Source of the DNA: a virus
IMG/VR virus record: IMGVR_UViG_3300003937_000076
Span: 1 to 34,916 of that record
Length of the DNA: 34,916 nucleotides
Reading direction: 5' to 3' (one strand)
Shown: piece after piece, positions 1 to 34,214 of the stretch
Layout: the number at the start of each line of letters is the position of its first letter
How positions within the stretch are numbered: the first letter of the stretch is position 1
Translations under genes and position numbers: made by a program
Notes under the pieces: model-generated
Told to the model about the DNA's origin: nothing
What the model saw: only the letters and a program-made list of their open reading frames with translations
Databases searched by the model: none

Positions 1-534
1 ATAAAAGGAAAATGGAATGTAATAGGCGGCCGCAATCAACAAACACCAGAAGCAATTCCAAAAGGTTGGCTAGCTGAGCGAGTAGATCCGCATGGTGATG
101 TATTTAGCTGGGTAAGAAGAAGTCTAAGGATTTATAGAAGTTTAGATTATCTTTGTGGAAGATATAATATCCCATATGTACAAACACAAATGATACCGTT
201 ATATGTAGATTGGTTAAGAGGATTGCCTCCCACTGATCAAGAAATAATGTTTGGCGGCAAAACATTTGAAGATGATACACTAGCATATCCAGGTGATCCT
301 AAAGAAGATCTGAAAAAAATACTTGATATTATAATTGAATATGATGGAATTATAGATGCACGTAACTTTTTAGGTTGGCCAATTTCAAGAAATATTGGAG
401 GATTTCCTCTTAGTATTGAGGTGTGTGGTGTAGTAGGAAGTCCTTATGTTATATCACAATATGATGGTCATCCGAATGCTGCTGGTCATATAAGATTAGC
501 AGAAGCTATTCATGAATTTATAAAAAATAAATGA
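1..534 (+). CDS. SGNH-hydrolase-like protein, 5'-truncated by window edge
   Basis: The reading frame is open from base 1, so the start codon lies before the window; an internal ATG at 190 is not the likely start. The visible 177 residues align along their length with the next gene: both have a G-W-L-x-E-R segment, then G-D-V-F-S-W-V-R-R-S-L-R, P-Y-x-Q-T-Q-M, a G-W-P segment and a C-terminal D-G-H-P block like block V of SGNH (GDSL) hydrolases, which supplies catalytic Asp/His. The N-terminal Gly-Asp-Ser block would be upstream and is not visible. SGNH enzymes are esterases, deacetylases or O-acyltransferases, often acting on sugars. It overlaps the next gene by ATGA. The family assignment rests mostly on the intact paralogue; the substrate is unknown. 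Confidence 0.6.
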   Translation: MKGKWNVIGGRNQQTPEAIPKGWLAERVDPHGDVFSWVRRSLRIYRSLDYLCGRYNIPYVQTQMIPLYVDWLRGLPPTDQEIMFGGKTFEDDTLAYPGDPKEDLKKILDIIIEYDGIIDARNFLGWPISRNIGGFPLSIEVCGVVGSPYVISQYDGHPNAAGHIRLAEAIHEFIKNK

Positions 535-1352
535 AATATTTAATAGTTAGTGGTGATAGTTTTACTAATTTAAAATTTAGATCTACAAATCACCCTGATA
601 TGGATACGTCTTGGCCAAAATGGCCTGAGATATTAGCTAAGAAATTAGATATGAAACTTATTTGTTTAGGGTCATCTGGTCAAGGCAATGAATATATTTA
701 CTCATCGCTACAAGATACAATTGAAAATATAAAAGATAAAAGTCAAATAGGTTTAGTTATTGCTGCATGGTCTCAGGGATTTAGAAAAGATTTTCAAGAA
801 AAAGATGTATGGCAACATACTGATGTATCACGGGGAAATAGAGCTGCTTCAAGAAGAGGATGGCTATTAGAACGTAAAGCTCTCGGTGATGTATTTAGTT
901 GGGTACGAAGAAGTTTAAGAACCTATTTAAGTTTTCAATATATGTGTGAATACCATAATTTGCCATATCTACAAACACAAATGGTAAATTTATATGGAGA
1001 TTATATAAAAGCATCAAATGGTATAATTAAAACCTATCATGATATTGAAAATTATAAAGATGTTATGGCTATTCTTCCTGCTGGTAGTTATTCCAACCAA
1101 GAGAAAGATAATAATATAGAAACATTATTAAAGATAATAATGTACTATGATCCGTTAATTAATCATAAATACTATATAGGTTGGCCAACTATAAAACAAC
1201 TTGGTGGATATTCTATGGATAGGAAATATTTTGATCTAGATCCAGATAATCCAAACATTATATCATTAGACGATGGACACCCCACTAAAGTTGGCAATGA
1301 AGTGTTAGCAACTTTATTTTATGAACATATAAAACAAGGAGAAATTAAATGA
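531..1352 (+). CDS. SGNH/GDSL-hydrolase-like protein
   Basis: The 273-aa protein starts with a beta-strand followed by Gly-Asp-Ser (residues 8-10), the nucleophile block I of SGNH hydrolases, and ends with D-D-G-H-P (about 247-251), matching the Asp/His block V. A G-S-S-G-Q-G-N segment (about 48-54) could serve as the Gly/Asn oxyanion block. A canonical block III G-x-N-D is not evident; the equivalent strand reads I-A-A-W-S-Q. It is a tandem paralogue of the preceding gene. ATG 531 overlaps the upstream stop as ATGA, and no clear Shine-Dalgarno is present, so translation is probably coupled. In a sugar-enzyme operon it may be a sugar O-acyl esterase or transferase. The fold is fairly secure; the activity is inferred. 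Confidence 0.6.
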   Translation: MKYLIVSGDSFTNLKFRSTNHPDMDTSWPKWPEILAKKLDMKLICLGSSGQGNEYIYSSLQDTIENIKDKSQIGLVIAAWSQGFRKDFQEKDVWQHTDVSRGNRAASRRGWLLERKALGDVFSWVRRSLRTYLSFQYMCEYHNLPYLQTQMVNLYGDYIKASNGIIKTYHDIENYKDVMAILPAGSYSNQEKDNNIETLLKIIMYYDPLINHKYYIGWPTIKQLGGYSMDRKYFDLDPDNPNIISLDDGHPTKVGNEVLATLFYEHIKQGEIK

Positions 1353-2026
1353 GTAATATAACAGAGTCTCTAAATAAAAGAGCTCATGTCGTACATTACC
1401 ACACTGGTCATGGAGAATTAGTTCCTACTAGAGCGGCTATAGATGACATACTAAAAATAGGTTATCCGCTTGCGACATCAAAACAAAATGCCTTTCCATA
1501 TAAATGTTATGTGTTAGGACCAAATGTAGAAAGAAGCAATCATCTATATCAGATGTGTGAGCAAAATAAAGTAGATTTTGATGGAGATGTTGGTGACAAA
1601 TACCATGCAAATCCTAATCTATATCATATTGCAACAGCACCGTGGACATTGATATTTACACCACGAGTCGCTCCACCTAATGCCTTTGCAGCAGAACAAT
1701 GTGAAGCAACAGGAACTCAGTGGGAAATGGGTAGAGAAGATTTTATCCCAGATGGTAGAGAAAGTTGGGGTATAGAAGTAGGAATGATTGCTAAAACAAT
1801 TACAGGAGCAGTGTGCGATGCAGGGTGGGATACTTCATATGCTATTTGTTTTCCTAAACAAGTAGAAAAGTGGCATTCAAAGCATTATCCATTTATTAAA
1901 TATACACCATATCTAATACAAACTATAGGAAAGGCAGAATTATATAAATGGCAAAATATGAAACCAGAAAGTCTTGCTAAAGATACGTGCCCTCCATTTG
2001 ATGATATCTTTGCTTTTATAGACTAA
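1349..2026 (+). CDS. Nitroreductase-like flavoprotein
   Basis: The 225-aa protein has the layout of the FMN-dependent nitroreductase family: an N-terminal S-L-N-K-R (about 7-11), a helix ending in P-T-R-A-A-I-D-D-I-L-K-I-G, then A-T-S-K-Q-N-A-F-P-Y-K-C-Y-V, equivalent to the family's A-P-S-x-x-N-x-Q-P-W-x-F-x-V. Later comes a W-G-I-E-V-G-M helix followed by G-W-D-T-S-Y-A, like the usual end of the FMN-binding core. These enzymes use NAD(P)H and FMN to reduce or dehydrogenate small molecules. A good ribosome site (AAGGAGA) precedes ATG 1349, which overlaps the upstream stop by four bases. The resemblance is by pattern only; the substrate is unknown. Confidence 0.5.
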   Translation: MSNITESLNKRAHVVHYHTGHGELVPTRAAIDDILKIGYPLATSKQNAFPYKCYVLGPNVERSNHLYQMCEQNKVDFDGDVGDKYHANPNLYHIATAPWTLIFTPRVAPPNAFAAEQCEATGTQWEMGREDFIPDGRESWGIEVGMIAKTITGAVCDAGWDTSYAICFPKQVEKWHSKHYPFIKYTPYLIQTIGKAELYKWQNMKPESLAKDTCPPFDDIFAFID

Positions 2027-2032
2027 TAAATA
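2025..2032 (+). promoter_or_regulatory. Candidate T4-type late promoter (variant)
   Basis: AATAAATA differs from the T4 late box TATAAATA at one base. It lies between the nitroreductase-like and isochorismatase-like genes, the only real gap in the plus-strand operon. The predicted start of transcription, six bases past the box, is 2-5 bases before ATG 2040 or 2043. It also overlaps the upstream stop codon, and AT-rich chance matches are possible. Confidence 0.35.
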
Positions 2033-2039
2033 GAATTAT

Positions 2040-2660
2040 ATGATGAAAAAAGTGATCGTACTAAACCACTTTCGTGGTTATCCTGAACTAATGGACGAAT
2101 GTTCAAATAACAATCGTTACGCACAATTACAATTCTTAATAGATCATGTTTATGGCAAAGCTTCTGACGTGGTGTTCTTATGGAATGATTCAATAAATAT
2201 AGACACACCAAAAGAAGATAAAAAAATGATGGCTATTAAGGATATTTCTCAAACAAACTTTAGTCATAGATGGGTCAGCTTCTTTGATAGCCACAATCTA
2301 GATGCAATCTTATTGAAAGTTGCACAAGGCGAGGAAGAAGATGTAGCTGGTAATCCACATATAGGATTTAATATTACGCCACACAATTCACATATTATAA
2401 TAACTGGAACAAATACTGCAGGATGTTTATTAAGAAACGCAAATGTTTCAATAAAAGAATGGTTCGATAGAGGATTTACAATAACACTTTGTTTATCAAT
2501 GTGTGCTGATTATCAATTAGATGGTCTTAATCCAACAGATAAGAATCAAAAAGCTACCGCAATTTTATATCAATATCTTAAAGATAATGATATGATACAT
2601 AAGGTAAATATTTGTTATAGTCCACAAGAAATGGGAGAAATACATGACAGGCTGGGATAG
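2040..2660 (+). CDS. Isochorismatase/cysteine-hydrolase-like protein
   Basis: The 206-aa protein begins with a hydrophobic strand (K-K-V-I-V-L-N-H) and later has I-I-I-T-G-T-N-T-A-G-C-L-L (about 119-131). The latter matches the isochorismatase-family signature in which a strand ends in G-x-x-T-x-x-C, with the cysteine (C129 here) as nucleophile, followed by a helix and a second strand (G-F-T-I-T-L-C-L). The N-terminal strand has Asn where the family usually has the catalytic Asp. The family includes amidohydrolases and pseudo-enzymes. Either of two adjacent ATGs (2040, 2043) could be the start. It overlaps the aminotransferase gene by 17 bases. The fold is moderately supported; the catalytic status is doubtful. 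Confidence 0.42.
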   Translation: MMKKVIVLNHFRGYPELMDECSNNNRYAQLQFLIDHVYGKASDVVFLWNDSINIDTPKEDKKMMAIKDISQTNFSHRWVSFFDSHNLDAILLKVAQGEEEDVAGNPHIGFNITPHNSHIIITGTNTAGCLLRNANVSIKEWFDRGFTITLCLSMCADYQLDGLNPTDKNQKATAILYQYLKDNDMIHKVNICYSPQEMGEIHDRLG

Positions 2661-3714
2661 AGATTATTTAGAAAATAAAGAGGAGTATTTAGAACTCTTC
2701 GATAGCGCAATGCAAAAAGAACAAGAGAGAAATATAGAATTTCTTGAGAAGAGCTTAAAGAAAATAACAGGTAGAAAGTTTGCAGTTGCTTGTAGTAGTG
2801 GCACAGATGCTTTAACTTTTGCCTTATTAAGTTTAAATCTTAAACCTGATGATGAAGTGTTAGTGACTAGCTTCTCTTGGATATCATCAGCATCGTGTGT
2901 ATCATTAGCTGGTGCCACACCAGTATTTTGTGATGTAGATTTAGAGACATATCATATATCACTTGATAGTGTTCTTGATATGGTGAGTGATAAAACTAAA
3001 GCAATTGTTTATCCACATTTATTTGGAAGTATGTCTCCAACAGATGATCTAAAAGATTTTTGTAGAGATCACGGTATTGTATTCATTGAAGATGCATGTC
3101 AAGCTTTAGGTTCTAAATTTAATGGTCATCCAGGCGGATCAATAGGAGATATTAGCACATTAAGTTTTAATGCAAACAAACAAGTTGCTGGTATTGCTGG
3201 AGGTGGTGCAGTACTCACAGACGATAAAGAACAAGCGGTGTTATTTAGAAAATTAAGAAAGCATGGTGAGCATGAAGTATTAGGTTATAATTCTAAAATG
3301 CTTGGTATGAATGCTGAGTTTATTAATTTTAGATTAGGGAAGATGGATGATTGGAATTGGAGAAGACGTATTATTGCTGAGAAATATGATGTAGCACTTG
3401 CACCATTACCATTTGTTATTATACAAGTACAAAATTCTGCTGAATACCATAGTTACCACAAATATGTTATTAGATTTGAGAATAAAGAATTAAGAGATGC
3501 TGCAAAAAATATGATACAAGGATCAGGAGTACATTATCCTACACCTATATGTGAACATCCAATGTATAAAAACATTAATCATGTAGTAGGTGATTATTCA
3601 AATGCGAAACAAATATGTGATACAATACTAACATTACCTATAAATCCATGGATAACGGATGAAGAAATAAATAATGTTGTAGAAAAAATTCAAAAAGTTT
3701 TATTTATGGCATGA
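2644..3714 (+). CDS. DegT/DnrJ/EryC1/StrS-family PLP sugar aminotransferase
   Basis: The 356-aa protein is of normal family length. It shows C-S-S-G-T-D-A-L (about 50-57, phosphate contact), G-D/D-E-V-L-V-T-S-F-S-W and A-T-P-V-F-C-D-V-D (91-99), the PLP-ring aspartate in E-D-A-C-Q-A-L-G-S (D150), and the Schiff-base lysine in S-F-N-A-N-K (K179) followed by a Gly-rich G-G-G-A-V-L. These enzymes transfer an amino group to keto-sugars (nucleotide-linked) or keto-cyclitols, making amino sugars for surface glycans and aminoglycosides. GGGAGA precedes ATG 2644, inside the end of the upstream gene, so expression is coupled. It is the most confident sugar-pathway assignment here together with the carbamoyltransferase. 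Confidence 0.93.
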   Translation: MTGWDRDYLENKEEYLELFDSAMQKEQERNIEFLEKSLKKITGRKFAVACSSGTDALTFALLSLNLKPDDEVLVTSFSWISSASCVSLAGATPVFCDVDLETYHISLDSVLDMVSDKTKAIVYPHLFGSMSPTDDLKDFCRDHGIVFIEDACQALGSKFNGHPGGSIGDISTLSFNANKQVAGIAGGGAVLTDDKEQAVLFRKLRKHGEHEVLGYNSKMLGMNAEFINFRLGKMDDWNWRRRIIAEKYDVALAPLPFVIIQVQNSAEYHSYHKYVIRFENKELRDAAKNMIQGSGVHYPTPICEHPMYKNINHVVGDYSNAKQICDTILTLPINPWITDEEINNVVEKIQKVLFMA

Positions 3715-4046
3715 TAGAAATAATCAACAATCGAATTTTTTTAATCGATGACAAAGCTAATCTCCATGAAATAAAGGATGGTGGCTTAATGCCTTTATAT
3801 CATAGTATGGAAAAACTATTAGGTAGTGTAGTCATTGATGAAAGTTTAGTTGAAGATGTCGAAGCTATATATTCCTACATAGTAGAAAAAATATATCTCA
3901 TGCCAGAATATTCTAAATGGTCAGATACTCCATTTAAGGAAGAGCCAAAAAGAAAATTGTTAATAGCTTTTAATAAATTTTTTCATGAGATTGCATATAT
4001 GGAATGGATATTAAAAGATGCTAAAGATGGTGGATTTTCGAAATGA
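3711..4046 (+). CDS. Unrecognised 111-aa protein between aminotransferase and radical SAM genes
   Basis: No family was recognised. The protein starts with a beta-rich stretch (I-E-I-I-N-N-R-I-F-L-I-D-D), followed by mostly helical, charged and aromatic sequence with E-E-P-K-R-K and F-F-H-E-I-A-Y-M-E-W. It contains no cysteine, signal peptide or membrane segment. It is locked to both neighbours by four-base ATGA overlaps at each end, so it is probably made in step with them. It might be a partner protein of one of these enzymes, but nothing in the sequence proves this. Confidence 0.7.
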   Translation: MIEIINNRIFLIDDKANLHEIKDGGLMPLYHSMEKLLGSVVIDESLVEDVEAIYSYIVEKIYLMPEYSKWSDTPFKEEPKRKLLIAFNKFFHEIAYMEWILKDAKDGGFSK

Positions 4047-4879
4047 AATTAACTGATGTACAAAATAATTATCTAGCAATAGATTTCTTTTTATCGATGT
4101 CATGCAATAAGGATTGTCATTATTGTACGAGCTATACTTTAGAACAAAGGAATCTAACCGTTGATATGGAGTTCTTAGAGAGAACATTATATTATTTAAG
4201 AAACTACAAGACTAGATGTAACATACTTGGTGGTGAACCTGGTTTAATTAAGAATTTACCTGATGTAATCAAAGCAATTCAAAGTAATCCTAATCATGTA
4301 TGCGAAGTACTATCTAACTCCACCGTAAGGAGAAGATACCCACAAGTATTGACAGATCCTACTATAATATATGTTGAGCATTTCATATTAGATTTTTATG
4401 AGCATGAGATATCTTTATTAGGACCTAAGTCATATGATTTCCATGATGAGAATGATTTTCATAACTATAATCTAGTTATTAAGACACCTAACTTTGAGAA
4501 GTATAAACATCTATATCCTGAGGCAATGAAAAAATTAGATCATAAAAATACCTTATGGAAAGAGTTTAATGGCAGATCACCTGATTTTGCTAATATACAA
4601 TTAAACGCCCAAGCAGCTGAGATAGATAGGAAGATGTGTGCAGCATTTCCTATGGTACCTGTTATTAACTTTGAGAATCAAAACTTAGTGCATTGTAGTA
4701 AGAAGTTTGCAAACAATGCTATCACCTCTAAAGAATTTGAGATAACTCAAGAGAATATAGATAAGATGATGAACTTCAGATTATTTAAATATGAAAATTA
4801 TTGTAAGACCTGTACAGAATATGTCCAACCAAAGGGACATTTTAATATTAAAAAATATGCGAGTATACTAAATGAATAA
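4043..4879 (+). CDS. Radical SAM enzyme with C-terminal auxiliary-cluster cysteines
   Basis: The 278-aa protein has the radical SAM motif C-x3-C-x2-C at C21, C25 and C28 (C-N-K-D-C-H-Y-C), close to the N-terminus as usual, then a G-G-E-P motif (about 63-66) that contacts SAM. Four further cysteines, C199, C218, C254 and C257, are spaced like an auxiliary 4Fe-4S cluster in a shortened SPASM ('twitch') domain. Members with this layout include dehydrogenases of amino-cyclitols and various maturases. It starts in an ATGA overlap and its end overlaps the carbamoyltransferase start by 8 bases. Radical SAM identity is firm; the auxiliary cluster is a strong inference and the substrate unknown. Confidence 0.88.
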   Translation: MKLTDVQNNYLAIDFFLSMSCNKDCHYCTSYTLEQRNLTVDMEFLERTLYYLRNYKTRCNILGGEPGLIKNLPDVIKAIQSNPNHVCEVLSNSTVRRRYPQVLTDPTIIYVEHFILDFYEHEISLLGPKSYDFHDENDFHNYNLVIKTPNFEKYKHLYPEAMKKLDHKNTLWKEFNGRSPDFANIQLNAQAAEIDRKMCAAFPMVPVINFENQNLVHCSKKFANNAITSKEFEITQENIDKMMNFRLFKYENYCKTCTEYVQPKGHFNIKKYASILNE

Positions 4880-6500
4880 AAAAATAATGGCAGTAGCATT
4901 GAACCTACACGATCACAACACATATGATGGAGTATGGCATAATCAAAGAGAAAGGCAAACACGATTTAAGCATAACCTACCTTATCGTGCAGAAGCTTAT
5001 GCTCATCAATCAGATATATTAAATCCTGGTGATTATAGATTAAATGATGAATTCACTAAAGAATATTTTAAGAAACCTGATGATGGTGTTCTAGCATTCA
5101 CATATACTTACGGTGGTGTAAGAATGTCAAAAGATGAATTACTTGAAACGGTATTAAAAGGACATGATGAGATATTTGATTGGCAACCTAAGAAATTGTG
5201 GGATCATTATTATAAAGATGACATATACTTTATAGACCATCATCAATCGCATGCTGCATATGCCTTTATTAATTCAGGTTTTGAAGAGGCTGATTGTTTA
5301 GCCATCGATGGTATTGGCAATCGTTATCGTTGTTGTTTCTTTGATAAACATGGAACAATGACTGATCTGTCAAATATATTGCCTATTGGTTGGTTATGGA
5401 ATCACATGTCAAATTTAACAGGGTTTGGTACGTTAGGTGCAGGTAAGCTTATGGGACTATCTGCTTATGGCAGAAACAATGATTACTTCTATGAAATATT
5501 TGAAACAATACTTGCTGGTCCTATAACAGAAAAGAAACAGGAGAAATTCGAAGAATATATTGATTTAAATAGATATAGAAAAGAAGATCTAGCATTTACT
5601 CTTCAGAAATTTACAATGGACAAAATAAGAGAATTTGTTCATCCGCTTCAATCTTCTCATAATCTATGTGTTGCTGGTGGTGTATCTTATAATGGATATA
5701 TGAATGAGGCATTTACTAAAAGATGGAAAAATGTACATGTACCTCCAGCAGTTGGTGATGAGGGTCAAGCTCTTGGTGCATATCAACATGCTGACTATGT
5801 TTTAAATGGTAACAAACATGTAGTAGATACTTATTCTGGTAAAGCCTATGATTGGGAACCCACTGAAGATGAAAGAATAAATGATCAGAATATGTATGAA
5901 AGATGGTCATCAGGTAAAGGGTTTCAATGGGGATATGAAGCATTATTTTGGGAACCTCTTAATATGACTGAAGTTGCTCAACAAATTGCTGATGGTAAAA
6001 CAGTAGGTTGGTTTCAAGGCAAATCTGAGAGTGGCAATAGAGCATTAGGTAATAGAAGTATCTTAGCAGATCCACGTAATCCCGATATAAAAGAAATTAT
6101 TAATAGTTCAATTAAAATGCGAGAAGACTTTAGACCATTTGCTCCTGCTGTAATGGAAGAACATTATAAAGAATACTTTGCTACGAATCAGCCATCACCA
6201 TATATGTCAAGAATTATGCCGGTAATATCTGATAAAATTCCAGGTGTAACACACGTTGATGGAACAGCAAGAATACAGACAGTGAATAGAGAACAAAATG
6301 AGAAGTACTACGATATCATTAATGAGTTTTATAAAATAACCGGTATACCTATGTTACTCAATACTAGTTTTAATTCTCAAGAGCCTATCGTAGAAGAACC
6401 GTGGCATGCGATACGTACCTTTCGTGAGACAGCTATAGATATATTAGTCATTGGAGATTGGATGTTAATTAAAAAAGTAACAAGTGATGGTTGGGGATAA
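4872..6500 (+). CDS. NodU/CmcH/TobZ-family carbamoyltransferase
   Basis: The 542-aa protein matches the two-domain O-carbamoyltransferase family. The N-terminal kinase-like domain has H-H-Q-S-H-A (H123, H124, H127), a metal/carbamoyl-adenylate site, then A-I-D-G-I-G (about 144-149) and G-K-L-M-G-L-S-A-Y-G (191-200). A V-A-G-G-V motif and D-E-G-Q-A-L-G-A follow. The YrdC-like C-terminal part shows G-N-R-A-L-G-N-R-S-I-L, R-P-F-A-P-A-V and L-L-N-T-S-F-N. The enzyme makes carbamoyl-adenylate from carbamoyl phosphate and ATP and transfers the carbamoyl group to a hydroxyl, typically of a sugar (Nod factor, tobramycin, cephem). Related genes are known in marine T4-like phages. The length is normal and the motifs intact. 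Confidence 0.93.
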   Translation: MNKKIMAVALNLHDHNTYDGVWHNQRERQTRFKHNLPYRAEAYAHQSDILNPGDYRLNDEFTKEYFKKPDDGVLAFTYTYGGVRMSKDELLETVLKGHDEIFDWQPKKLWDHYYKDDIYFIDHHQSHAAYAFINSGFEEADCLAIDGIGNRYRCCFFDKHGTMTDLSNILPIGWLWNHMSNLTGFGTLGAGKLMGLSAYGRNNDYFYEIFETILAGPITEKKQEKFEEYIDLNRYRKEDLAFTLQKFTMDKIREFVHPLQSSHNLCVAGGVSYNGYMNEAFTKRWKNVHVPPAVGDEGQALGAYQHADYVLNGNKHVVDTYSGKAYDWEPTEDERINDQNMYERWSSGKGFQWGYEALFWEPLNMTEVAQQIADGKTVGWFQGKSESGNRALGNRSILADPRNPDIKEIINSSIKMREDFRPFAPAVMEEHYKEYFATNQPSPYMSRIMPVISDKIPGVTHVDGTARIQTVNREQNEKYYDIINEFYKITGIPMLLNTSFNSQEPIVEEPWHAIRTFRETAIDILVIGDWMLIKKVTSDGWG

Positions 6501-7360
6501 TGCTTAGTAGAGATAAATTATCTCATGTAACAAATATATTAAACTTAAAAAATCCTAAAGCTAAAGGAGTTAATCACGTACTTGACGTTATAACTGCTAT
6601 AGAACAAGAGGACAATCTTTTATTTCTTAATTTATTATTAGATGACGATCAAGATAGAAGCTTGCTCGATAGTGTATTCACTGCAATTAAGCATGAGCCA
6701 GATCACGAAGAGGATATTTTAGATTCATTTAGTGATAATCAAGTCTTAGCTAAAACAAATTTAGTGAATGGCTTAGATAATCTAAATCTTTTAAATAAAG
6801 AAACTGAAGTTGTTATATTCGGATGCTGGTATGGAAGTATTCTTATACCGCTATTACACGACAAAGTTAAAAGTATTACTGCAATTGATGTAGATGACCA
6901 TGCGATTTCAATTGGTCAAAATAGATTCTTCGACCAATATGATAATATCACTTGGATAACCGGCGACATTTTCGAAGATTATAGAGATATGTTTGATACT
7001 GCAGATATCTTTATCAATACCTCATGTGAACATATGTTACCTATGAAATGGTGGGGTCCAAAGGGTCCAAGAAAAGACCATGATTGGTTTAAAGAATGGA
7101 ATGGTGATTATAGAAGAGAGTGGAAAGGTAAAGATGAGAACAAGTGGCCGGTATATGATATAGGTTGGTGGGAAAGAGTTAAACCTTCTGCTCATTTTGC
7201 CTTTACATCTAATAACATGTATGATATCCCAGGCCATATTAACTGCGTAGATAGCATAGAAAAATTTAAAGTACAACTACCAGCCGGAGCAGAAGTATTG
7301 ACAGAGAGTGAATTAGAAGACGAGAGAGGTATCAGGTATCTATTAATTGGAAAGCTATGA
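6500..7360 (+). CDS. Class I SAM-dependent methyltransferase-like protein
   Basis: I chose ATG 6500, which overlaps the upstream stop as TAATG, over a TTG at 6491; this gives 286 aa. The first 100 residues are helical and acidic. A Rossmann core follows: strand V-V-I-F then G-C-W-Y-G-S (about 108-113) as a degenerate motif I, then I-T-A-I-D-V-D (about 126-132), whose aspartate would bind the SAM ribose, and an N-I-T-W-I-T-G-D-I strand typical of motif III. A W-W-G-P-K-G-P-R insertion rich in Trp/Lys is unusual. Its place between carbamoyltransferase and glycosyltransferases suggests sugar methylation. The fold is likely; activity and target are inferred. Confidence 0.65.
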   Translation: MLSRDKLSHVTNILNLKNPKAKGVNHVLDVITAIEQEDNLLFLNLLLDDDQDRSLLDSVFTAIKHEPDHEEDILDSFSDNQVLAKTNLVNGLDNLNLLNKETEVVIFGCWYGSILIPLLHDKVKSITAIDVDDHAISIGQNRFFDQYDNITWITGDIFEDYRDMFDTADIFINTSCEHMLPMKWWGPKGPRKDHDWFKEWNGDYRREWKGKDENKWPVYDIGWWERVKPSAHFAFTSNNMYDIPGHINCVDSIEKFKVQLPAGAEVLTESELEDERGIRYLLIGKL

Positions 7361-8223
7361 AAAGAATAATCTATAGTATATATGTTGATATACCAGCACC
7401 TGAACATTATGGCACCACCTCAAAAAGTAAATTTGATACAGTAGAAAAAGCAGAGATAACCGTTGATGCTTTTAAAGAACATTATGATAGATTAAAAGAA
7501 TGTAAACGAGTTTATGCTGAGCGTATAGGTGTACCATTTAAGATGTACGAATACGATAATAGATATAAACAGTTTGAAAAAGATTTTCAACGCGATTACC
7601 CAGAGGTTACTGGATATGAGATAATAAATTTCTATAAATTACATGTATTATATGAGTTAGCAAAGAGCTATGATGAAATTCTATACTTAGACTTTGATGC
7701 TATACCTATGAATCATTCAGAAAATTTCTTCGAAGAATGGGATTTAAATAAAGGAATATGTGTCTTAGATAATAACGATAAGATTGTTCATAACGTAGAA
7801 GCTAGCCAAAGTATACGTAGTCCATCAGCAAAATATTATAATTGTCAAGCGATGTTATTAGATGGTGGTTATTATCCTGATAATGATGTAATCAATACCG
7901 GTATTATTGGTGCAAGTGCAAAACATATAAAGCAGTTAGATTATTTCGGTGGATTTAAACACATATTAGAAATGATGACATCATTAAGAAGTGATGATTA
8001 TAGAGAAATCGGTCTATACCCTAAAAATATTGTCGATATGTTTAGATATGATAATGAAACTATTTTCGCATATAAATTAAAAGTTAATAAAGTTCCTGTA
8101 CAATGGCTTGACCCAAGATGGCATTACTTCTTTGATATGCAACAGTTCATACCACCTTTTGCAAAGATAGTCCATGCAATCTGTAAAGATTTTGATTGTG
8201 TGTGGAGAAGATACGATGGTTAA
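7357..8223 (+). CDS. Glycosyltransferase-like protein (GT-A fold, DxD)
   Basis: The 288-aa protein has an N-terminal strand (K-R-I-I-Y-S-I-Y-V) and a central I-L-Y-L-D-F-D-A-I-P motif in which D112 and D114 form the DxD that binds a divalent metal and nucleotide-sugar phosphates in GT-A glycosyltransferases. The hydrophobic strand followed by DxD and the later N-T-G-I-I-G-A segment (compare N-x-G of GT8-like enzymes) fit a GT8/capsule-type transferase. No membrane segment is seen, so it should act in the cytoplasm. It begins in an ATGA overlap with a weak GGAAAG site. It is the first of three neighbouring DxD proteins. Donor and acceptor are unknown. Confidence 0.7.
   Translation: MKRIIYSIYVDIPAPEHYGTTSKSKFDTVEKAEITVDAFKEHYDRLKECKRVYAERIGVPFKMYEYDNRYKQFEKDFQRDYPEVTGYEIINFYKLHVLYELAKSYDEILYLDFDAIPMNHSENFFEEWDLNKGICVLDNNDKIVHNVEASQSIRSPSAKYYNCQAMLLDGGYYPDNDVINTGIIGASAKHIKQLDYFGGFKHILEMMTSLRSDDYREIGLYPKNIVDMFRYDNETIFAYKLKVNKVPVQWLDPRWHYFFDMQQFIPPFAKIVHAICKDFDCVWRRYDG
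8204..8210 (+). promoter_or_regulatory. Shine-Dalgarno that fixes the second glycosyltransferase start
   Basis: GGAGAAG ends five bases before ATG 8216, an excellent spacing. It lies inside the end of the upstream glycosyltransferase gene and selects 8216 over the in-frame ATG at 8174. Confidence 0.75.
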
Positions 8224-8977
8224 AATATGTACCGTATACTATAGCGACAAATATAATGCAGACTATGTAAGTAAATTATATGATAGCATAAGAAGAAACT
8301 GTAGTATACCATTTCAATCAGTATGTCTTAGTGACGATCCTAATGTCGAAGCTGATATAGTATTACCATATAATCCTCATGGCGATGTAAAGAAACATTG
8401 GCATAAACTAAAATTCTTCTCTCCGTATTTTGGATATCAATCTCCAGGTGATGATATAATAATTATGGATATTGATCAAGTTATTACAGGCAACGTTGAC
8501 GACCTTATAGGACATTATGTACAAGAGAATGAATTAGTTACGTATGGTATATGGTGGAATAGACAAACCATACAGATGGCAACAAATGCATTACAAACAA
8601 ATGGTGGATTTTACAAGTTTAAATCTGGTAGTTTATCATATGTATGGGATGACTTTATTGAGAATCCTGAGTATTGGCAAATGCATTACTACAATGAAAG
8701 AGTTGTTCACTTTCCATATTACGGTGAACAGAACTATGTTAATTGGAGAGCATGGGAAAATAAGATAAAGATAATTCCTACACCTGAAGAGTGGATAGGC
8801 AAATGCGATATGGATATGGCCGAAAATACAGTAAATAATAAATTATATTTTGAAGAGTTTGGTGATTTTATGTTTATGGATAAGGTAAATCCTAATATTA
8901 AAGTAATGCACTTTACTGGTTTAGAGAATACTATACATGACAATCGCTGCGGCTGGATTAAGGATCATTGGAAATGA
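8216..8977 (+). CDS. Second glycosyltransferase-like protein (DxD)
   Basis: I start this gene at ATG 8216 (253 aa), because a strong ribosome site precedes it and the protein then begins with a typical strand (V-K-I-C-T-V-Y-Y-S-D); an in-frame ATG at 8174 would add 14 implausible residues. The DxD motif lies at D85 and D87 in I-I-I-M-D-I-D-Q-V-I. Downstream an N-G-G-F segment and an H-F-T-G near the C-terminus resemble the Gly/His metal-ligand region of GT8-like enzymes. It overlaps the previous gene by 8 bases and the next by four. It is probably a cytoplasmic glycosyltransferase; donor and acceptor are unknown. Confidence 0.7.
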   Translation: MVKICTVYYSDKYNADYVSKLYDSIRRNCSIPFQSVCLSDDPNVEADIVLPYNPHGDVKKHWHKLKFFSPYFGYQSPGDDIIIMDIDQVITGNVDDLIGHYVQENELVTYGIWWNRQTIQMATNALQTNGGFYKFKSGSLSYVWDDFIENPEYWQMHYYNERVVHFPYYGEQNYVNWRAWENKIKIIPTPEEWIGKCDMDMAENTVNNKLYFEEFGDFMFMDKVNPNIKVMHFTGLENTIHDNRCGWIKDHWK

Positions 8978-9540
8978 AGAGAATAATATGTTGTAGATTC
9001 GGTGATAAGTTTAATCAATGGCATGTTGATAACTTAAAGCATATGATCGACAGCTGGTCAGGTATAGAGTATGATGAATTTGAAGTTGTTGAAAGAGATC
9101 TATATGGTAATTGGTATAATAAATTTCAGATGTATGATAAGTTTAGGGATGGAGAGAACCTCTATTTTGATTTAGATATGATTATATATGGAAGATTGCC
9201 TAATCTATTTAAAAAGAATTTTACACTATTAGATGATAAATGGTGGAGAGAACCAGCACATACACCATTAAACTCTTCAATAGTTTCTTGGACTGGTGAT
9301 GTATCATATATATGGGAGAAGTTTTGGCCTTATGCTGATGCTTATATGAAGCAATACAATAAAGGCAGTGATGAATGGTATTATAAAGAAATAGAATACG
9401 AAATGTTTAATCCCGTATGTCCAAAATTTAATATGAAATATGCTGATCCTAACTTCCGTATATGCACCTTAGGACAGATGCATCACATTATGGAAGAAGG
9501 GTGGTCCGGTTGGTGGTCACCCTGGTTTCTTAAACGTTAA
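8974..9540 (+). CDS. Third, short glycosyltransferase-like protein (DxD)
   Basis: The ATG at 8974 forms an ATGA overlap with the upstream stop and gives 188 aa; an in-frame ATG at 8968 is also possible. The N-terminus (K-R-I-I-C-C-R-F-G-D-K-F) is a strand-turn like those of the two preceding proteins. The motif L-Y-F-D-L-D-M-I carries D66 and D68. The protein is shorter than the other two and Trp-rich near its C-terminus (G-W-S-G-W-W-S-P-W), with I-C-T-L-G-Q-M-H-H before it. It may be a compact transferase or a degenerate copy. Its stop codon shares the palindromic TTAA with the stop of the convergent gene on the other strand. Confidence 0.6.
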   Translation: MKRIICCRFGDKFNQWHVDNLKHMIDSWSGIEYDEFEVVERDLYGNWYNKFQMYDKFRDGENLYFDLDMIIYGRLPNLFKKNFTLLDDKWWREPAHTPLNSSIVSWTGDVSYIWEKFWPYADAYMKQYNKGSDEWYYKEIEYEMFNPVCPKFNMKYADPNFRICTLGQMHHIMEEGWSGWWSPWFLKR

Positions 9541-10229
9541 GCTTCTGTTCCTTTAGCTGCTGCTATTTTCTTTGCAGCTGCCACTTTTGCTTTCTGTACT
9601 TCAGGCCTCTTAGCAGTTGCTGCTCTGTTTTTCGGTGACATTTTAGATTCTTTCTTAATTGTCGCCTCTACTTTATCTAGTGCTTTTTCATTTTCTTTAG
9701 GATCAAGTTCTGCTACAACATCAGTGTCCATAGATCTTACACCTGTAATAGCAAATGCATGCTGTAAGATTTCAATCTTATGTTGGGCCTTTCTTAATGC
9801 AGTCTTAGCTTCAACATTATCTGACTCACGTATTTCTTGTAATTCAAATAGTGCTAGCTTTAATGCAAATAAATGATCTTCATTTTCCATGTTAGTAAAG
9901 ATAGCTTCAACAAGAGTAGGGAATATCTTTGTCTTTGACAAATTACTTTCTTGCTCTAGCATACCTGAATCTGCCATAACTTGTTTTGCCATTGCAACGA
10001 AAGCTTCACTCTCTGCTTTCTTGATATTCCAAGTTTCTTCATGAATCGCATCCATAGTAGTAATTTTCATAAGATCTTTAAAATCTTTTTGCTCTTCTGA
10101 AGCCTCAATAACATGAGGTGTTAGTTCCATTTCACCCGTATGATCCATGTTCAGTAAAACTTCAAGGTTCTTCCTGTCCTGGTCAATGAAGGTTGCTGAT
10201 ACAAATGTATCTTTAGTGATTAAACTCAT
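9537..10229 (-). CDS. Helical protein of unknown function at the end of the fibre operon
   Basis: No family was recognised. The 230-aa protein is mostly helical and acidic through the middle (E-E-Q-K-D-F-K-D-L-M, A-L-F-E-L-Q-E-I-R-E). It ends in a Lys/Ala-rich tail of about 40 residues (A-A-A-K-K-I-A-A-A-K), a composition seen in nucleic-acid-binding or flexible tails. No signal or membrane segment is present. The start is supported by GAGGAAAG upstream and by TAATG overlap with the previous structural gene, so it is the last gene of the fibre operon. That position suggests a fibre chaperone or minor virion component, but this is only context. Confidence 0.75.
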   Translation of the reverse strand: MSLITKDTFVSATFIDQDRKNLEVLLNMDHTGEMELTPHVIEASEEQKDFKDLMKITTMDAIHEETWNIKKAESEAFVAMAKQVMADSGMLEQESNLSKTKIFPTLVEAIFTNMENEDHLFALKLALFELQEIRESDNVEAKTALRKAQHKIEILQHAFAITGVRSMDTDVVAELDPKENEKALDKVEATIKKESKMSPKNRAATAKRPEVQKAKVAAAKKIAAAKGTEA

Positions 10230-11143
10230 TATGCTTTCCTCGCTTTTAAATAGTATGTTGAAATTGTCGCCGCCGAACCTGACGGGAACTCTTGTGTTCG
10301 ATAGTCATCGCCACCAACTTCACGTTGTGCGTATGTCGAACTGTTTAATTTAGTATTGACCATACCAGAACCTAAGTTAGTGCCTGATCCATCAATTGCG
10401 TATCGTATTTTATGATTAGTTAATTCTACTGCCACATAACGTATCATCTCTTTTATAATAGCATCAAACTCTGCTTCAGTATATTCTTCAATATTGTTAT
10501 CACCATTAATGAAACATGGGTTTGCGCTGTAATCAGTCTCTGTACCATTTGCTCGATGAAGATAATAGTTAGTAATTGTAGTTGGTTGGTCTTGTGTTTC
10601 AGTAATACCACCCGCAGTATATGCTCCAGCGTTTGCACGTGTATCTGTAAATACCGCTGTTGTTGAAACATTAGTATATCCAGATGGAGCTGAAGTAGAT
10701 GTGCTAATCTGATAAGGTAGTGCTGCTATAATTGCATCAACAAGAGTATCTGCATAAGTATCAAACATCTCTTGTGGAGTCATAGCTTTTAAATTATTGC
10801 TTGAATCTACATATACCGGGAATCTTGTTGTAGAGCCATTATCATTAAATGTTAATGAACCTGCAGTTGCTTCAGATATCTTATCATATGAAACAGTTAC
10901 AGTACTTACATCAGGAGTATCTCCAGCAGAACGGAAGCTACTCGCATGAGATGTTGCAGCACCCGCTTGGGTTCTTGTATCACTCATGGCACTGAGCGTA
11001 CCACTGCTACCAACTTGGGATAATGTAACCGATTGATCTGCTAAGTATAACCATTTTGCTCGGTTAATAATCGCAGTCTTATCGTCAGCTGACATCTCCT
11101 TCAAGTTGTTTGAATCTATTTTTACTGGTGTTCTTGCTGCCAT
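10229..11143 (-). CDS. Virion structural protein with three internal repeats
   Basis: The 304-aa protein contains three copies, about 90-100 residues apart, of a short motif: I-D-S-N-N-L-K-E-M-S near residue 8, V-D-S-S-N-N-L-K-A-M-T near 111 and I-N-G-D-N-N-I-E-E-Y-T near 210, each followed by an acidic helix. Between them lie Ser/Thr/Gly-rich beta segments typical of phage tail proteins (T-R-T-Q-A-G-A, T-R-A-N-A-G-A). ATG 11143 has AAAGGA upstream and two TATAAATA late-promoter boxes, so it is probably made late and independently of the 927-aa fibre. It is probably a fibre- or baseplate-associated structural protein; the exact role is unknown. Confidence 0.75.
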   Translation of the reverse strand: MAARTPVKIDSNNLKEMSADDKTAIINRAKWLYLADQSVTLSQVGSSGTLSAMSDTRTQAGAATSHASSFRSAGDTPDVSTVTVSYDKISEATAGSLTFNDNGSTTRFPVYVDSSNNLKAMTPQEMFDTYADTLVDAIIAALPYQISTSTSAPSGYTNVSTTAVFTDTRANAGAYTAGGITETQDQPTTITNYYLHRANGTETDYSANPCFINGDNNIEEYTEAEFDAIIKEMIRYVAVELTNHKIRYAIDGSGTNLGSGMVNTKLNSSTYAQREVGGDDYRTQEFPSGSAATISTYYLKARKA

Positions 11144-11148
11144 AGTAT

Positions 11149-11156
11149 TATTTATA
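11149..11156 (-). promoter_or_regulatory. T4-type late promoter immediately before the 304-aa structural gene
   Basis: The minus strand reads TATAAATA here. Six bases past the last A lies the A of ATG 11143, so a transcript from this box would be leaderless. A second box lies 23 bases further upstream. Confidence 0.5.
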
Positions 11157-11168
11157 TCCTTTAGTTAA

Positions 11169-11209
11169 GTCTATTTATACTCATCTTAAATAGAAAAGTA
11201 TAAATAGAC
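11169..11209. repeat. Perfect 12-bp inverted repeat with a late promoter in each arm
   Basis: GTCTATTTATAC (11169-11180) and GTATAAATAGAC (11198-11209) are exact reverse complements separated by 17 bases. Each arm contains TATAAATA: one faces the 304-aa gene and the other faces back into the 927-aa fibre gene. The repeat lies directly after that fibre's stop codon (11221), so its RNA could also form a 12-bp stem that marks the 3' end. Confidence 0.85.
11172..11179 (-). promoter_or_regulatory. T4-type late promoter for the 304-aa structural gene
   Basis: The minus strand reads TATAAATA, extended as GTATAAATAG. The predicted start near 11166 is an A and leaves a 22-base leader that contains the AAAGGA ribosome site, so this is the more conventional of the two boxes for the gene at 11143. 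Confidence 0.65.
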
Positions 11210-11220
11210 GTTGTTAATAT

Positions 11221-14004
11221 TTATGCTCCTGCACCATATACTGTTTTCACAGTTGAACCAGCCGCGTTAATAATCAATAATGTTGATAATGTCTTTAACT
11301 GAGCTGAACCAATAGCATCATCTGCCATCTTCGCTTCAGTAACTGAATCATCAGCATAGTGAGCCGTATCAATAGAACCGTCGACATACATATCAGAATC
11401 AATACTATTGTCGGCCATCAAAGCCGCTGTAATCTGATCATTTGCTATATGTGCCGTATCAATTGAACCAGCTGCATAGTGTTCAGAATCAATTGCATCA
11501 TCAGCGATCTTAGCACCAGTAATTGCATCTGCTGCTATCTTCGCGCTTGTCACTTGTAAATCACCTAAGTGAGCAGTGTCAATAGAACCATCAACGTACA
11601 TATCAGAATCAATGCTGTTGTCTGCCATCAGCGCTGCTGTGATTTGGTCATTAGCAATATGTGCTGTGTCAATAGAACCATCGACATACATATCTGAATC
11701 AATAGAATTATCTGCCATAAGAGCCGCAGTAATTTGATCATTGGCTATATGCGCGGTATCGATTGAACCATCAACGTACATATCAGAATCAATAGAATTA
11801 TCTGCCATTAAAGCTGCTGTGATTGCATCATTGGCAATGTGAGCAGTGTCAATAGATCCATCTGTATAGTGTTCTGAATCACAAGCATTATCTGCTAAAT
11901 TATCACCATCAACGGCATCATTAGCAAGCATCGCATGTTCTACAGCTGCAGTTTGAATTGTTCCTGCTGCTGTCACATTTCCTGAACCATCGAAACTAGG
12001 TGATGTCCATACAACATCTCCTGTCATTCCTATTGTTCTACCAGTTGCTAACGCTGTAGCAGTACTAGCATTACCTGTAACCGCTCCTGTAACATTACCT
12101 TCAATTGTGGCAACTAAAGTACCAACTGCGTAACCAGTACCAGCCGTGTTAACCGTTGTTGTAGGCTCTGCTTGATTGTCTTTAAATAGTTTCCACTTAC
12201 CTGAATCAGAAGCATCTCTGAACATTCCACCATATAAGTCTTGTGAACCTGATGTATCATACAAACCATACCAACCAATATCAACTGCATCCGCAGCATT
12301 ATTAGTTGTTGCTAATGCAACTAATGGATCAGCAACTTCGATTGTTGTTGAAGAAACTGTTGTTTGAGTACCACTTACTGTTAAGTTACCCGCAATCGTT
12401 ACATTATTTGGTAAACCAACTGTGATTGTACCTGCACTCTCAGCAACTTCAATCTCATTAGTTGTACCAGCAAAAGTTAATGTACCACCAAGAGCAACAG
12501 GTGATGTGTTTGAACCATCACTTACTGTAACACTTGAATTTGCTAAGTGAACATTATCTACTGAGCCATCAACTATATGCTCACTATCGATTTGGTCATC
12601 AGCAATCAAAGCAGATGTAATATTGTCTGCAGTGATATGAGCTGTTTGGATTGAACCATCGATATAAGCATCTGTGTTAACACTATTAGGTGCTAAATGC
12701 TCAGCATCAATTGAATCTGCAACGATATGCTCTGAGTTAATTACATCATCTGCAATCAAAGCTGCAGTGATTGAGTCAGCTGCGATATGAGCAGTTACAA
12801 TTGAACCATCAATATAAGCATCAGTATTAACAGAGTTTGCTGCTAGATGTTCCGCATCAATAGAGTCTGCAACAATGTGCTCACTATCAATTTGGTCATC
12901 TGCAATTAACGCTGATGTAATCTGATCTGCCGCGATATGCGCGGTGTCAATCGAACCCGCTGCATAATGCTCTGAATCAATGGCATCGTCCGCTATCTTA
13001 GCTCCTGTAATTGCATCAGCCGCGATCTTAGCAGTAGTAACATTTAAATCAGCAATATGCGCAGTATCAATTGAACCATCAACATACATATCTGAATCAA
13101 TACTATTGTCTGCCATTAAGGCAGCTGTAATTTGGTCGTTAGCAATGTGAGCAGTATCAATTGAGCCATCAACTAAATGCTCTGAATTAACAGAGTCATC
13201 CGCTAGCTTAGTACTATCAATTACGTCTGCAGCAAGTTTTGCTCTTGTGACATTTGCATCAAGAATCTTAGCTGTTGTAATTTGGTCATCAGCGATATGA
13301 GCTGTATCAATAGAACCATTAACTAGTTCTGATGAATCAACCGTGTTAGCTGCAAGACTTACAACACCTGCGTTAGTCATTGTTACATCACCACTTAGTG
13401 CAGCAGCAGTAAATCCTGTGCCATCACCAATTAATACTTGAGTATCTGCAACTGCTTTAGCTGAAACAACACCCGAACTGTTTGCATCTCTTACTAAAAC
13501 TGTGTTAGCAGCTGAATCAGCGATCTTCGCTAATGTTACTTGAGCATCTGCAATGTGAGCTGTATCAATTGAACCATTTACTAGTTCTGATGAATCAACT
13601 GTGTTAGCAGCTAGTGATATTACACCACCATCTGTCATAGTAGCATCGCCACTCATAACATTGTCGATCCACATCGATGTTCCAGTATCATACAATATCA
13701 TTGAGCCATCGGCCGCAGATGTAATGTTTACATCGTTATCTTCTGCAAGTGTATTCTCAGCACCAACTTGGGCATCTACATAAGCTTTGACGGATTGCTG
13801 TGTAGGTACTTTAGTGGCACTATCAGATGACATGTTATCTTCATCAACAACAAATCCGACCGTTGCTGAAGAAGCTAATGATGTATCTAATAACGTACCC
13901 GCTGCATCAGGTAACGTTATTGTTCTATTTGTAGAGCTATTAGGAGAAGCAATAGTAAATATACCAGTTCCGCCTGAATCACCCTGTAGTTTTAATTTTG
14001 ACAT
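11221..14004 (-). CDS. Giant tail-fibre protein with decapeptide-repeat shaft
   Basis: The 927-aa protein opens with a Gly/Thr-rich head (T-I-T-L-P-D-A-A-G-T), then a D-E-D-N-M-S-S-D-S-A-T module and a short S-A-A-D-G-S-M-I-L-Y-D module. Residues from about 143 to 495 and from about 690 to 910 are a ten-residue repeat (I-D-T-A-H-I-A-D-D-Q and variants); G-S-I-D-T-A-H occurs 11 times. Between the two blocks is a knob (T-V-S-S-T-T-I-E-V-A-D-P-L) shared with the 889-aa fibre. The C-terminus (L-L-I-I-N-A-A-G-S-T-V-K-T-V-Y-G-A-G-A) is nearly that of the 439-aa fibre. AGGAGAG precedes the ATG. Probably a trimeric receptor-binding fibre or its shaft. Confidence 0.9.
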   Translation of the reverse strand: MSKLKLQGDSGGTGIFTIASPNSSTNRTITLPDAAGTLLDTSLASSATVGFVVDEDNMSSDSATKVPTQQSVKAYVDAQVGAENTLAEDNDVNITSAADGSMILYDTGTSMWIDNVMSGDATMTDGGVISLAANTVDSSELVNGSIDTAHIADAQVTLAKIADSAANTVLVRDANSSGVVSAKAVADTQVLIGDGTGFTAAALSGDVTMTNAGVVSLAANTVDSSELVNGSIDTAHIADDQITTAKILDANVTRAKLAADVIDSTKLADDSVNSEHLVDGSIDTAHIANDQITAALMADNSIDSDMYVDGSIDTAHIADLNVTTAKIAADAITGAKIADDAIDSEHYAAGSIDTAHIAADQITSALIADDQIDSEHIVADSIDAEHLAANSVNTDAYIDGSIVTAHIAADSITAALIADDVINSEHIVADSIDAEHLAPNSVNTDAYIDGSIQTAHITADNITSALIADDQIDSEHIVDGSVDNVHLANSSVTVSDGSNTSPVALGGTLTFAGTTNEIEVAESAGTITVGLPNNVTIAGNLTVSGTQTTVSSTTIEVADPLVALATTNNAADAVDIGWYGLYDTSGSQDLYGGMFRDASDSGKWKLFKDNQAEPTTTVNTAGTGYAVGTLVATIEGNVTGAVTGNASTATALATGRTIGMTGDVVWTSPSFDGSGNVTAAGTIQTAAVEHAMLANDAVDGDNLADNACDSEHYTDGSIDTAHIANDAITAALMADNSIDSDMYVDGSIDTAHIANDQITAALMADNSIDSDMYVDGSIDTAHIANDQITAALMADNSIDSDMYVDGSIDTAHLGDLQVTSAKIAADAITGAKIADDAIDSEHYAAGSIDTAHIANDQITAALMADNSIDSDMYVDGSIDTAHYADDSVTEAKMADDAIGSAQLKTLSTLLIINAAGSTVKTVYGAGA
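11366..11455 (-). repeat. Isolated copy of the 90-bp fibre repeat
   Basis: This 90-base unit encodes the same 30 residues as the tandem copies at 11576-11845 but with different synonymous codons. It is separated from them by other decapeptide repeats. Confidence 0.85.
11576..11845 (-). repeat. Three tandem 90-bp repeats in the fibre shaft
   Basis: Units lie at 11576-11665, 11666-11755 and 11756-11845 (30 codons, three decapeptides each). The first two differ at 18 of 90 bases by my count, yet encode the same residues, including an AGC/TCT serine switch. The third has Ala for Gln at one position. Confidence 0.9.
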
Positions 14005-20050: not shown

Positions 20051-20245
20051 TTATCTCTCTATTAATTGTTTTAACATATCTTTAATTTCCGATACATCCT
20101 GTTCTACTTTATCTAATCTGTTTGCATCTACTTTCATTCTTGCTCTATTAGCTGAATGCATTACACCATCACTATTCATATTTATAATAGCACCTGAGTT
20201 TGTATCTCTTACCATGCCAGGATGTCCATAAACAGGTATCTTCAT
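20051..20245 (-). CDS. Small structural protein with C-terminal coiled coil
   Basis: The 64-aa protein starts I-P-V-Y-G-H-P-G-M-V-R-D, continues with S-G-A-I-I-N-M-N-S-D and ends in a heptad-like helix (L-D-K-V-E-Q-D-V-S-E-I-K-D-M-L-K-Q-L-I-E). It starts at the stop codon of the 1687-aa gene (TAATG) and is followed closely by the 439-aa fibre, so it is part of the same operon. A short beta head plus a coiled coil suggests a trimeric fibre linker or chaperone. The function is unproven. Confidence 0.75.
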   Translation of the reverse strand: MKIPVYGHPGMVRDTNSGAIINMNSDGVMHSANRARMKVDANRLDKVEQDVSEIKDMLKQLIER

Positions 20246-34102: not shown

Positions 34103-34214
34103 AGTAGAACCTTGATGAGGATTACTATCACCTGTTACAGTCCTCCTTTACCTGCTTCGCCAGCCGCTTCGAGCATAGTAGAACCTTGATGAGGATTACT
34201 ATCACCTGTTACAG
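34067..34214 (-). repeat. Perfect 74-bp tandem duplication inside gp48
   Basis: Bases 34067-34140 and 34141-34214 are identical. Because 74 is not a multiple of three, the second copy shifts the frame and brings a TAA after ...G-K-G-G-L. The lack of any difference between copies means the duplication is very recent or artificial. Confidence 0.97.

Follow-up and report, generated by a model that had tools for sequence, protein, structure and literature searches.

Two known kinds of phage system frame the locus described here. One is a type of genomic island: in pelagimyophages, the host recognition cluster between VrlC and gp14 holds tail fibres together with GT8 glycosyltransferases and cassettes of radical S-adenosylmethionine (SAM) genes (Zaragoza-Solas 2020, PMC7029224). 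The other is virion glycosylation in mycobacteriophages, where phage-coded glycosyltransferases act on the C-termini of the capsid and the tail tube (Freeman 2023, as cited in PMC12619734). The stretch analysed here, IMG/VR virus record IMGVR_UViG_3300003937_000076 (hereafter the window; the complete record, 34,916 bases), carries at positions 1–9540 an operon, genes A–L, that combines sugar-building enzymes with glycosyltransferases and abuts a tail-fibre array. Across related loci the glycosyltransferases J, K and L accompany N, a gene of that array, and we consider it probable that the operon serves virion glycosylation in a pelagimyophage-type T4-like phage, with N or its companion M as the acceptor and an exchangeable cassette supplying a carbamoylated amino sugar. 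A literature search, with most subscription papers outside its scope, returned no description of the conserved core, of the E–F and u4–H gene fusions or of the N–M tie reported below.

The operon and its conserved core

The window derives from a T4-like myovirus: its PHROG matches include families for the baseplate wedge and hub, the tail tube cap and the fibres. Twelve plus-strand open reading frames (ORFs), A–L, cover positions 1–9540, and their eleven junctions consist of ten overlaps of 4–17 bp and one 13-bp gap, which bears out the view of a first-pass annotation, made from the letters and translated reading frames, that this is one coupled operon. It meets the fibre-side genes M and N convergently with an overlap of 4 bp, and its GC content is 32.5%, compared with 36.9% for the remainder of the window. 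The genes and sites are as follows.

1–534, plus strand: A, SGNH-like protein, its 5′ part beyond the window (269 residues in contig L036)
531–1352, plus strand: B, second SGNH-like protein, 273 residues
1349–2026, plus strand: C, nitroreductase family, 225 residues, accessory
2040–2660, plus strand: D, isochorismatase-like cysteine-hydrolase fold, 206 residues, accessory
2644–3714, plus strand: E, DegT/DnrJ/EryC1/StrS aminotransferase, 356 residues
3711–4046, plus strand: F, DegT accessory domain, 111 residues, fused to E in part of the relatives
4043–4879, plus strand: G, radical SAM enzyme by motif and fold, with a twitch-like C-terminal four-Cys set, 278 residues
4872–6500, plus strand: H, TobZ/NodU-type O-carbamoyltransferase, 542 residues
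6491–7360, plus strand: I, probable class I-like methyltransferase, 289 residues
7357–8223, plus strand: J, probable GT8-like glycosyltransferase, 288 residues
8210–8977 (longest ORF from 8174), plus strand: K, probable glycosyltransferase of PHROG 1962, ~255 residues
8968–9540, plus strand: L, probable glycosyltransferase of PHROG 1962, 190 residues
9537–10229, minus strand: M, protein accompanying N, convergent with L
10229–11143, minus strand: N, Ser/Thr-rich (24%) protein of 304 residues in the tail-fibre array, proposed acceptor
11149–11179, minus strand: two TATAAATA boxes (T4-type late promoter), 6 and 29 bp upstream of N

Members of the DegT family add amino groups to keto sugars or cyclitols, and TobZ-type enzymes place carbamoyl groups on hydroxyls. 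The identities of E and H as members of these families are certain. E matches the DegT family of Pfam at 284 bits against a cut-off of 19.8 and keeps the pyridoxal phosphate lysine, Lys179, in 25/25 sequences, its nearest relatives in the PDB being scyllo-inositol transaminase (7b0d) and QdtB. The carbamoyltransferase N and C domains of H score 80.7 and 220.2 bits, both well above cut-off, its profile matches TobZ at 1.4e-48, and the metal-site motif HHxxH is present in all 36 rows with letters at that site. At the positions of TobZ 408/421/423, H carries W, G and R in 69, 71 and 71 of 72 rows, and it would transfer its carbamoyl group to a sugar hydroxyl. By its motifs G is certainly a radical SAM enzyme: CX3CX2C, GGEP and four C-terminal Cys (C199, C218, C254, C257) are invariant in the 20 aligned sequences, and the Pfam radical SAM score (29.1 bits) is marginally below the cut-off of 29.5. 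The four C-terminal Cys would bind one auxiliary cluster, as in a BtrN-like twitch dehydrogenase. An AlphaFold2 model of G has a fold like that of SPASM/twitch enzymes, with a mean predicted local distance difference test score (pLDDT) of only 72 and weakness in the Cys regions.

The calls for the transfer genes rest on weak profiles together with invariant motifs. Matches of I to methyltransferase families in Pfam and NCBIfam, and of J to GT8 in Pfam, are below threshold, and J has no profile match in the PDB. K and L match the glycosyltransferase family PHROG 1962 at 3e-12 and 1e-4, and a PDB profile search with K gave only spurious matches (Lupus La and one methylase chain). The DxD motif is invariant in all three (J 23/23, K 20/20, L 19/19). 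Sugar amination, radical chemistry, O-carbamoylation, methylation and transfer, which had been read at first pass as lying together in one operon, are thus all represented by matched families with key residues kept; the DegT, carbamoyltransferase and radical SAM calls are firm, those of the methyltransferase and glycosyltransferases less so.

Related loci were gathered by searches with H, C and G, with three annotated phage regions added, which gave 135 loci, 117 of them with an intact G, and 51 representatives at 97% G identity. E lies upstream of G, within four genes, in all 49 representatives with enough sequence, and H lies downstream of G in 44/47; in the three without H, the contig breaks off within an open u4-type gene, which elsewhere is fused to H. 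The order H-I-J-K-L is kept in 27/30, the exceptions being HKIJJ, HIL and HIJK. The conserved part is E-(F)-G-H-I-J-K-L. The set is conserved in related marine myoviruses and in the cultured Pelagibacter phage Mosig EXVC030M (MT647606), and for E–L the genes are neither scattered nor missing their key residues, the two findings that would have told against the first-pass reading.

Two fusions tie the steps together. F, which the first-pass annotation did not name, is a separate gene in 26/48 representatives, a C-terminal extension of E in 20/48 and neither in 2/48; in a search with the F profile, each of the 20 long E proteins scored at least as well as 2e-20. Furthermore, u4, a radical SAM gene, is fused to H in 15/135 loci (nine distinct proteins of 835–975 residues; 2/51 representatives). 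These fusions offer function hints for F and for the radical SAM–carbamoyltransferase protein, both of which lack a family name in the libraries searched.

G is essentially confined to phages. It was confirmed in 331 stretches of viral data, of which the best 80 were fetched, and in three stretches among 84,980 species genomes; two of these three carry phage fibre-side genes and the third is a 7.6-kb operon fragment. Host copies of the pathway were considered and set aside, as these phage-like stretches are the only ones in the genomes. Among 50,697 records of a phage collection, Mosig alone has relatives of G, X (described below), J, N or M, and a near-identity search with the operon gave no match there.

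Leftward extension and accessory genes

Since ORF A is open at its 5′ end, the operon is truncated at base 1 of the window. The same operon is present in two near-identical contigs (99.8%), one of which holds the full unit of 22 genes over ~21.0 kb, with a TATAAATA box 26 bp upstream of its first gene. The window therefore holds the final 12 of 22 genes, ten more lying further upstream; of the full tailoring pathway proposed at first pass, only about half is inside the window. The first gene encodes 971 residues, in which a twitch radical SAM enzyme (NF033640, 240 bits) is joined to an X domain at the N-terminus. It is followed by a nitroreductase, an isochorismatase-like protein, two twitch radical SAM proteins, a second nitroreductase, a SPASM-like protein of 132 residues, a radical SAM gene that is truncated in this contig, a PP-loop protein, a radical SAM-like protein and then A–L. 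In total, the 22-gene unit has six radical SAM regions, and the gene labelled u8 is weakly QueC-like. The 259-residue radical SAM gene u7 is intact in L037, L038 and L015 and lacks its N-terminal cluster motif in the near-identical L036, L002, L039 and L003, a difference that may reflect strain-level loss or an assembly error.

X is the first gene in 25 of the 26 operons with a visible start. A PDB profile search with X gave no result and no family name was assigned; its C-terminus looks GT-B-like by eye. In some relatives, a B12-binding radical SAM protein and a redoxin lie opposite the operon start (L110, 4068–5918 and 3487–4122).

Genes A–D, by comparison, are no fixed part of the set. In the SGNH proteins Ser11, Asp247 and His249 are invariant in 14/14 sequences; the Pfam GDSL scores are below cut-off and no PDB profile match was found. 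An SGNH gene (A or B) is directly upstream of E in 38/47 loci, so an SGNH gene is common there without being fixed. C alone has no Pfam match, and the profile of its family (16 sequences) matches PDB entry 3gfa at 2e-6, with the next matches at 0.02 and weaker; the nitroreductase assignment holds at family level. D has no Pfam match, and its eight-sequence profile has no PDB match below E 0.4. An AlphaFold2 model of D (pLDDT 85.7) has an isochorismatase-like cysteine-hydrolase fold, with Z 10.7–13.2 among the matches listed, and Cys129 is invariant in 8/8 sequences of the family. Against the isochorismatase call, the position of the usual catalytic Asp of such hydrolases is His in 3/8, including D. 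C is labelled in at least 12/51 and D in at least 4/51 representatives, both lower bounds because many contigs are cut. C, D and the genes labelled u1–u9 are variably present across the representatives. A fixed nitroreductase–isochorismatase pair was considered and dropped: D directly follows C in 3/51 representatives, the window being one of them.

Gene N, the glycosyltransferases and late promoters

The association between the glycosyltransferases and the fibre array was measured from the fibre side. N and M were searched separately, and 39 N loci reduced to 25 at 95% N identity and to 23 with at least 4 kb of sequence beyond N. Within 8 kb of N in these 23 dereplicated loci, at least one of J, K and L is present in 23/23, M in 22 and I in 21, and just 9 have E or G there. 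Three layouts occur: the two sides converge, as they do in the window; N-M-L-I-J all run in one direction and the sugar genes are absent; or N-M and then E-G-H-I-J share a strand. N or M and E/G share a strand in eight loci. In record G008, a fibre gene (1516 residues) and N-M-L-I-J-K follow each other on one strand, overlapping or at most 9 bp apart. The 18 kb read there contain no match to E, G or H, and the complete record has no G.

The same tie is seen in whole records. A strong N match is present in 10 of 15 whole records, and J in nine of those and in 0/5 of the others (one-sided Fisher 0.002); several of the 15 were picked for holding N or the operon, and among the five picked by gp25 alone, N and J are both present in two and both absent from three. 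The single N record without J carries K and L, and G is in four records, all with N. A control of 77 gp25 loci (729 kb; 39 of them at least 8 kb) gave no match to the E and G–N families. Viewed from the operon, 30 representatives with J also have N or M, two have neither on the side available and seven are cut too early. Those two, L129 and L093, extend 2.5 kb past L; we count them as cut because they start inside E and their nearest type has N/M upstream. The weak partial N match in HTVC008M (23% over 77 residues) was not counted as N.

Two side observations concern the neighbourhood of N. Many relatives carry a gene for a sugar epimerase on the strand of the fibres (Pfam 81 bits; annotated in Mosig), which points to nucleotide sugars; in many relatives it lies between M and N (L110, 15936–16664), and the window has no counterpart there. 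Furthermore, L200, L202 and L205 hold N-M-L-I-J beside other radical SAM/SPASM genes, with an SGNH-like and a PP-loop gene also in L202, and represent a second cassette type in other marine phage contigs.

PMC2984593 gives the late promoter as NATAAATA in cyanophage S-PM2 and TATAAATA in T4, and states that early and late promoters may overlap. Facing the operon, TATAAATA is present at 12 of 20 clean divergent starts, compared with a mean of 0.8 and a maximum of 5 in dinucleotide shuffles, and the looser [TCA]ATAAATA at 18 of 20 (shuffles: mean 1.4, maximum 5). Only 1/356 internal genes has TATAAATA within 60 bp. Of the seven minus-strand boxes in the window, six precede a minus-strand gene by 72 bp or less, among them the two in front of N.

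The proposed pathway and its rivals

We propose that the operon forms the right-hand portion of an island for virion glycosylation, expressed late and organised in two layers. In the first, a transfer unit, J, K and L with I would belong with N and M and would glycosylate one of these, most likely N, in the cytoplasm ahead of assembly. The second would be an exchangeable cassette whose core, G, E with its F domain and H, makes a carbamoylated amino sugar. In the suggested order of steps, G would create or reshape a keto group by a BtrN-like radical oxidation or another redox step, E would aminate that group, H would add the O-carbamoyl and I would methylate. BtrN, a twitch radical SAM enzyme, converts a ring hydroxyl to a ketone (PMC9012708). 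The SGNH, nitroreductase, isochorismatase-like, PP-loop and further radical SAM genes would be variable decorations. More specifically, and tentatively, the N–M acceptor with its J/K/L/I unit and a swappable, radical-SAM-rich, aminoglycoside-like cassette may form a modular virion-glycan system that puts the carbamoylated amino sugar at the fibre tip. Virion glycosylation, which the first-pass annotation had found attractive from the neighbouring fibre genes, is now better supported because the glycosyltransferases follow N, the candidate acceptor and a putative virion protein.

Several observations weigh against this interpretation. N and M match no PHROG family of known role, and N is a putative virion protein by its position and its late boxes. 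In the window as a whole the TATAAATA count is not above that of shuffles (9 vs 7.8). E falls short of all NCBIfam equivalog cut-offs (the nearest is PseC, 193.7 vs 423.5 bits), and no specific sugar is assigned. In the weak model of G, the peptide-modifying SuiB (Z 11.4) ranks first, and PqqE (10.4) and BlsE (10.2) also rank above BtrN (9.4) and SpeY (8.7), which suggests a fold that is not specific to BtrN, with SPASM peptide-modifying enzymes ranking higher. The locus counts are conditional on N, G, H or C because the loci were found by those searches, and many contigs are cut. In PMC7029224 the genes of the host recognition cluster are read as serving modification of the host O-chain. This published view and the sigma70-like promoters at half of the operon starts also favour the main rival.

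That rival, which we consider possible and rather unlikely, is remodelling of the host surface: the lipopolysaccharide (LPS) core of the infected SAR11-type cell would be altered, blocking superinfection or re-adsorption of progeny to debris. It agrees with the published view of pelagimyophage GT8 genes, in which GT8 is linked to LPS (PMC7029224). In addition, 10 of the 20 operon starts also have a sigma70-like pair with an extended -10, which permits earlier expression; because half of the starts are of this kind, expression need not be solely late, and at those starts its timing is probably mixed. None of the 21 operon proteins tested has a strongly hydrophobic stretch of 19 residues (maximum 1.53), and synthesis and use of the product are therefore expected to be cytoplasmic. 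Glycosylation of a virion protein agrees best with such a pathway, and the LPS core is still compatible with it; the 21 proteins include no hydrophobic flippase- or Gtr-like protein. The linkage of J/K/L to a fibre-array gene and the late boxes at the operon starts likewise argue for virion glycosylation over a changed host surface.

A modified peptide or diffusible small molecule, RiPP-like (that is, a ribosomally synthesized and post-translationally modified peptide) or aminoglycoside-like, for which F or some short ORF would be the substrate, would account for the six radical SAM regions of the 22-gene unit and for the fold matches to SPASM peptide maturases. We consider it improbable, since F is a fused DegT domain in 20 representatives and no free precursor is seen, three to four glycosyltransferases with DxD are present, and none of the 21 proteins tested is exporter-like and hydrophobic. 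F as a RiPP precursor was dropped once it proved to be a DegT domain.

DNA hypermodification, in which H would carbamoylate and the glycosyltransferases would glycosylate modified bases of the phage DNA, appears highly improbable. Certain phage carbamoyltransferases do act on 5-hydroxymethylcytosine, and three sites differ in these DNA-modifying enzymes (PMC8670742); phage glycosyltransferases can act on DNA, and u8 is weakly QueC-like. H belongs to the same superfamily as the 5-hydroxymethylcytosine enzyme at 24% identity, and at the three marker sites it has W/G/R where the DNA enzyme has I/C/T. Furthermore, the neighbours of the operon are fibres, and Mosig has no thymidylate-synthase family match in a genome that is only 75.7% complete (PMC7892664). 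Finally, a loose pile of auxiliary genes with no joint product would fit a region known to be hypervariable (PMC7029224) in which accessory genes come and go, and is scarcely credible given the conserved adjacency and order (49/49, 44/47, 27/30), the two gene fusions and the overlapping genes.

Phage glycosyltransferases of SAR11-type hosts have so far been read as tools for changing the host surface (PMC7029224), and the tie to N provides a testable alternative, with a candidate acceptor (Mosig_00097, the N homologue) and its partner (Mosig_00095, the M homologue) in a phage available in culture. If virion glycosylation is correct, phages of some of the most abundant ocean bacteria would coat their virions with sugars that arise through radical SAM chemistry. 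Swapping of sugars would then offer a way to vary adsorption or shielding, and surface chemistry may be diversified by cassettes and not by fibre sequence alone.

Comparison with described systems

Beyond N, the minus strand of the window continues with three features that place the operon in its wider context.

11221–14004, minus strand: O, repetitive 927-residue protein of the fibre array, no informative family
14024–16693, minus strand: P, tail fibre protein (PHROG 892, tail fiber)
20245–25308, minus strand: homologue of VrlC, which marks the host recognition cluster; matches VrlC of Mosig at 36% across 1357 columns

O is built of many near-copies of a SIDTAHIA-type unit, and Pfam is uninformative for it. 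A 74-bp exact tandem repeat at 34067–34214, near the right end of the record, may be real or a trace of assembly, and a tRNA scan of the window found none.

With its fibres and glycosyltransferases, VrlC homologue and T4-like structural region, the window corresponds to the pelagimyophage host recognition cluster, the gp14 side of which falls outside it. The account of that cluster in PMC7029224 mentions neither a carbamoyltransferase nor an aminotransferase (0 occurrences). The closest cultured counterpart is Mosig, where the island likewise lies beside the fibres and VrlC, with the same core X-SGNH-E(F)-G-H-I-J-K-L followed by M, the epimerase and N on the opposite strand. It differs in sequence (G 72% and H 68% identical) and has no C–D pair at that place. 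The Mosig cluster is annotated as molybdenum cofactor enzymes and hypothetical proteins, and the genome announcement (PMC7892664) does not discuss it; the molybdenum cofactor biosynthesis label on X and the radical SAM genes (L052, 10412–14999) looks misleading.

H relatives are found in 141 phage records, mostly cyanophages, and H matches the cyanophage Nol-like carbamoyltransferases (PHROG 1601) at 3.5e-107 with ~30–37% identity. The neighbourhoods in S-TIM4 and HTVC008M contain no relatives of E and G. With butirosin BtrS/BtrN and tobramycin TobZ chemistry the operon would share DegT amination, a twitch radical SAM enzyme and O-carbamoylation; the homology is remote, no equivalog cut-off is reached, and product and acceptor may differ. 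Compared with virion glycosylation in mycobacteriophages, which targets capsid and tail tube, the system described here would act on a fibre-array protein as its probable acceptor and would draw its sugar from a radical SAM/DegT/carbamoyl cassette.

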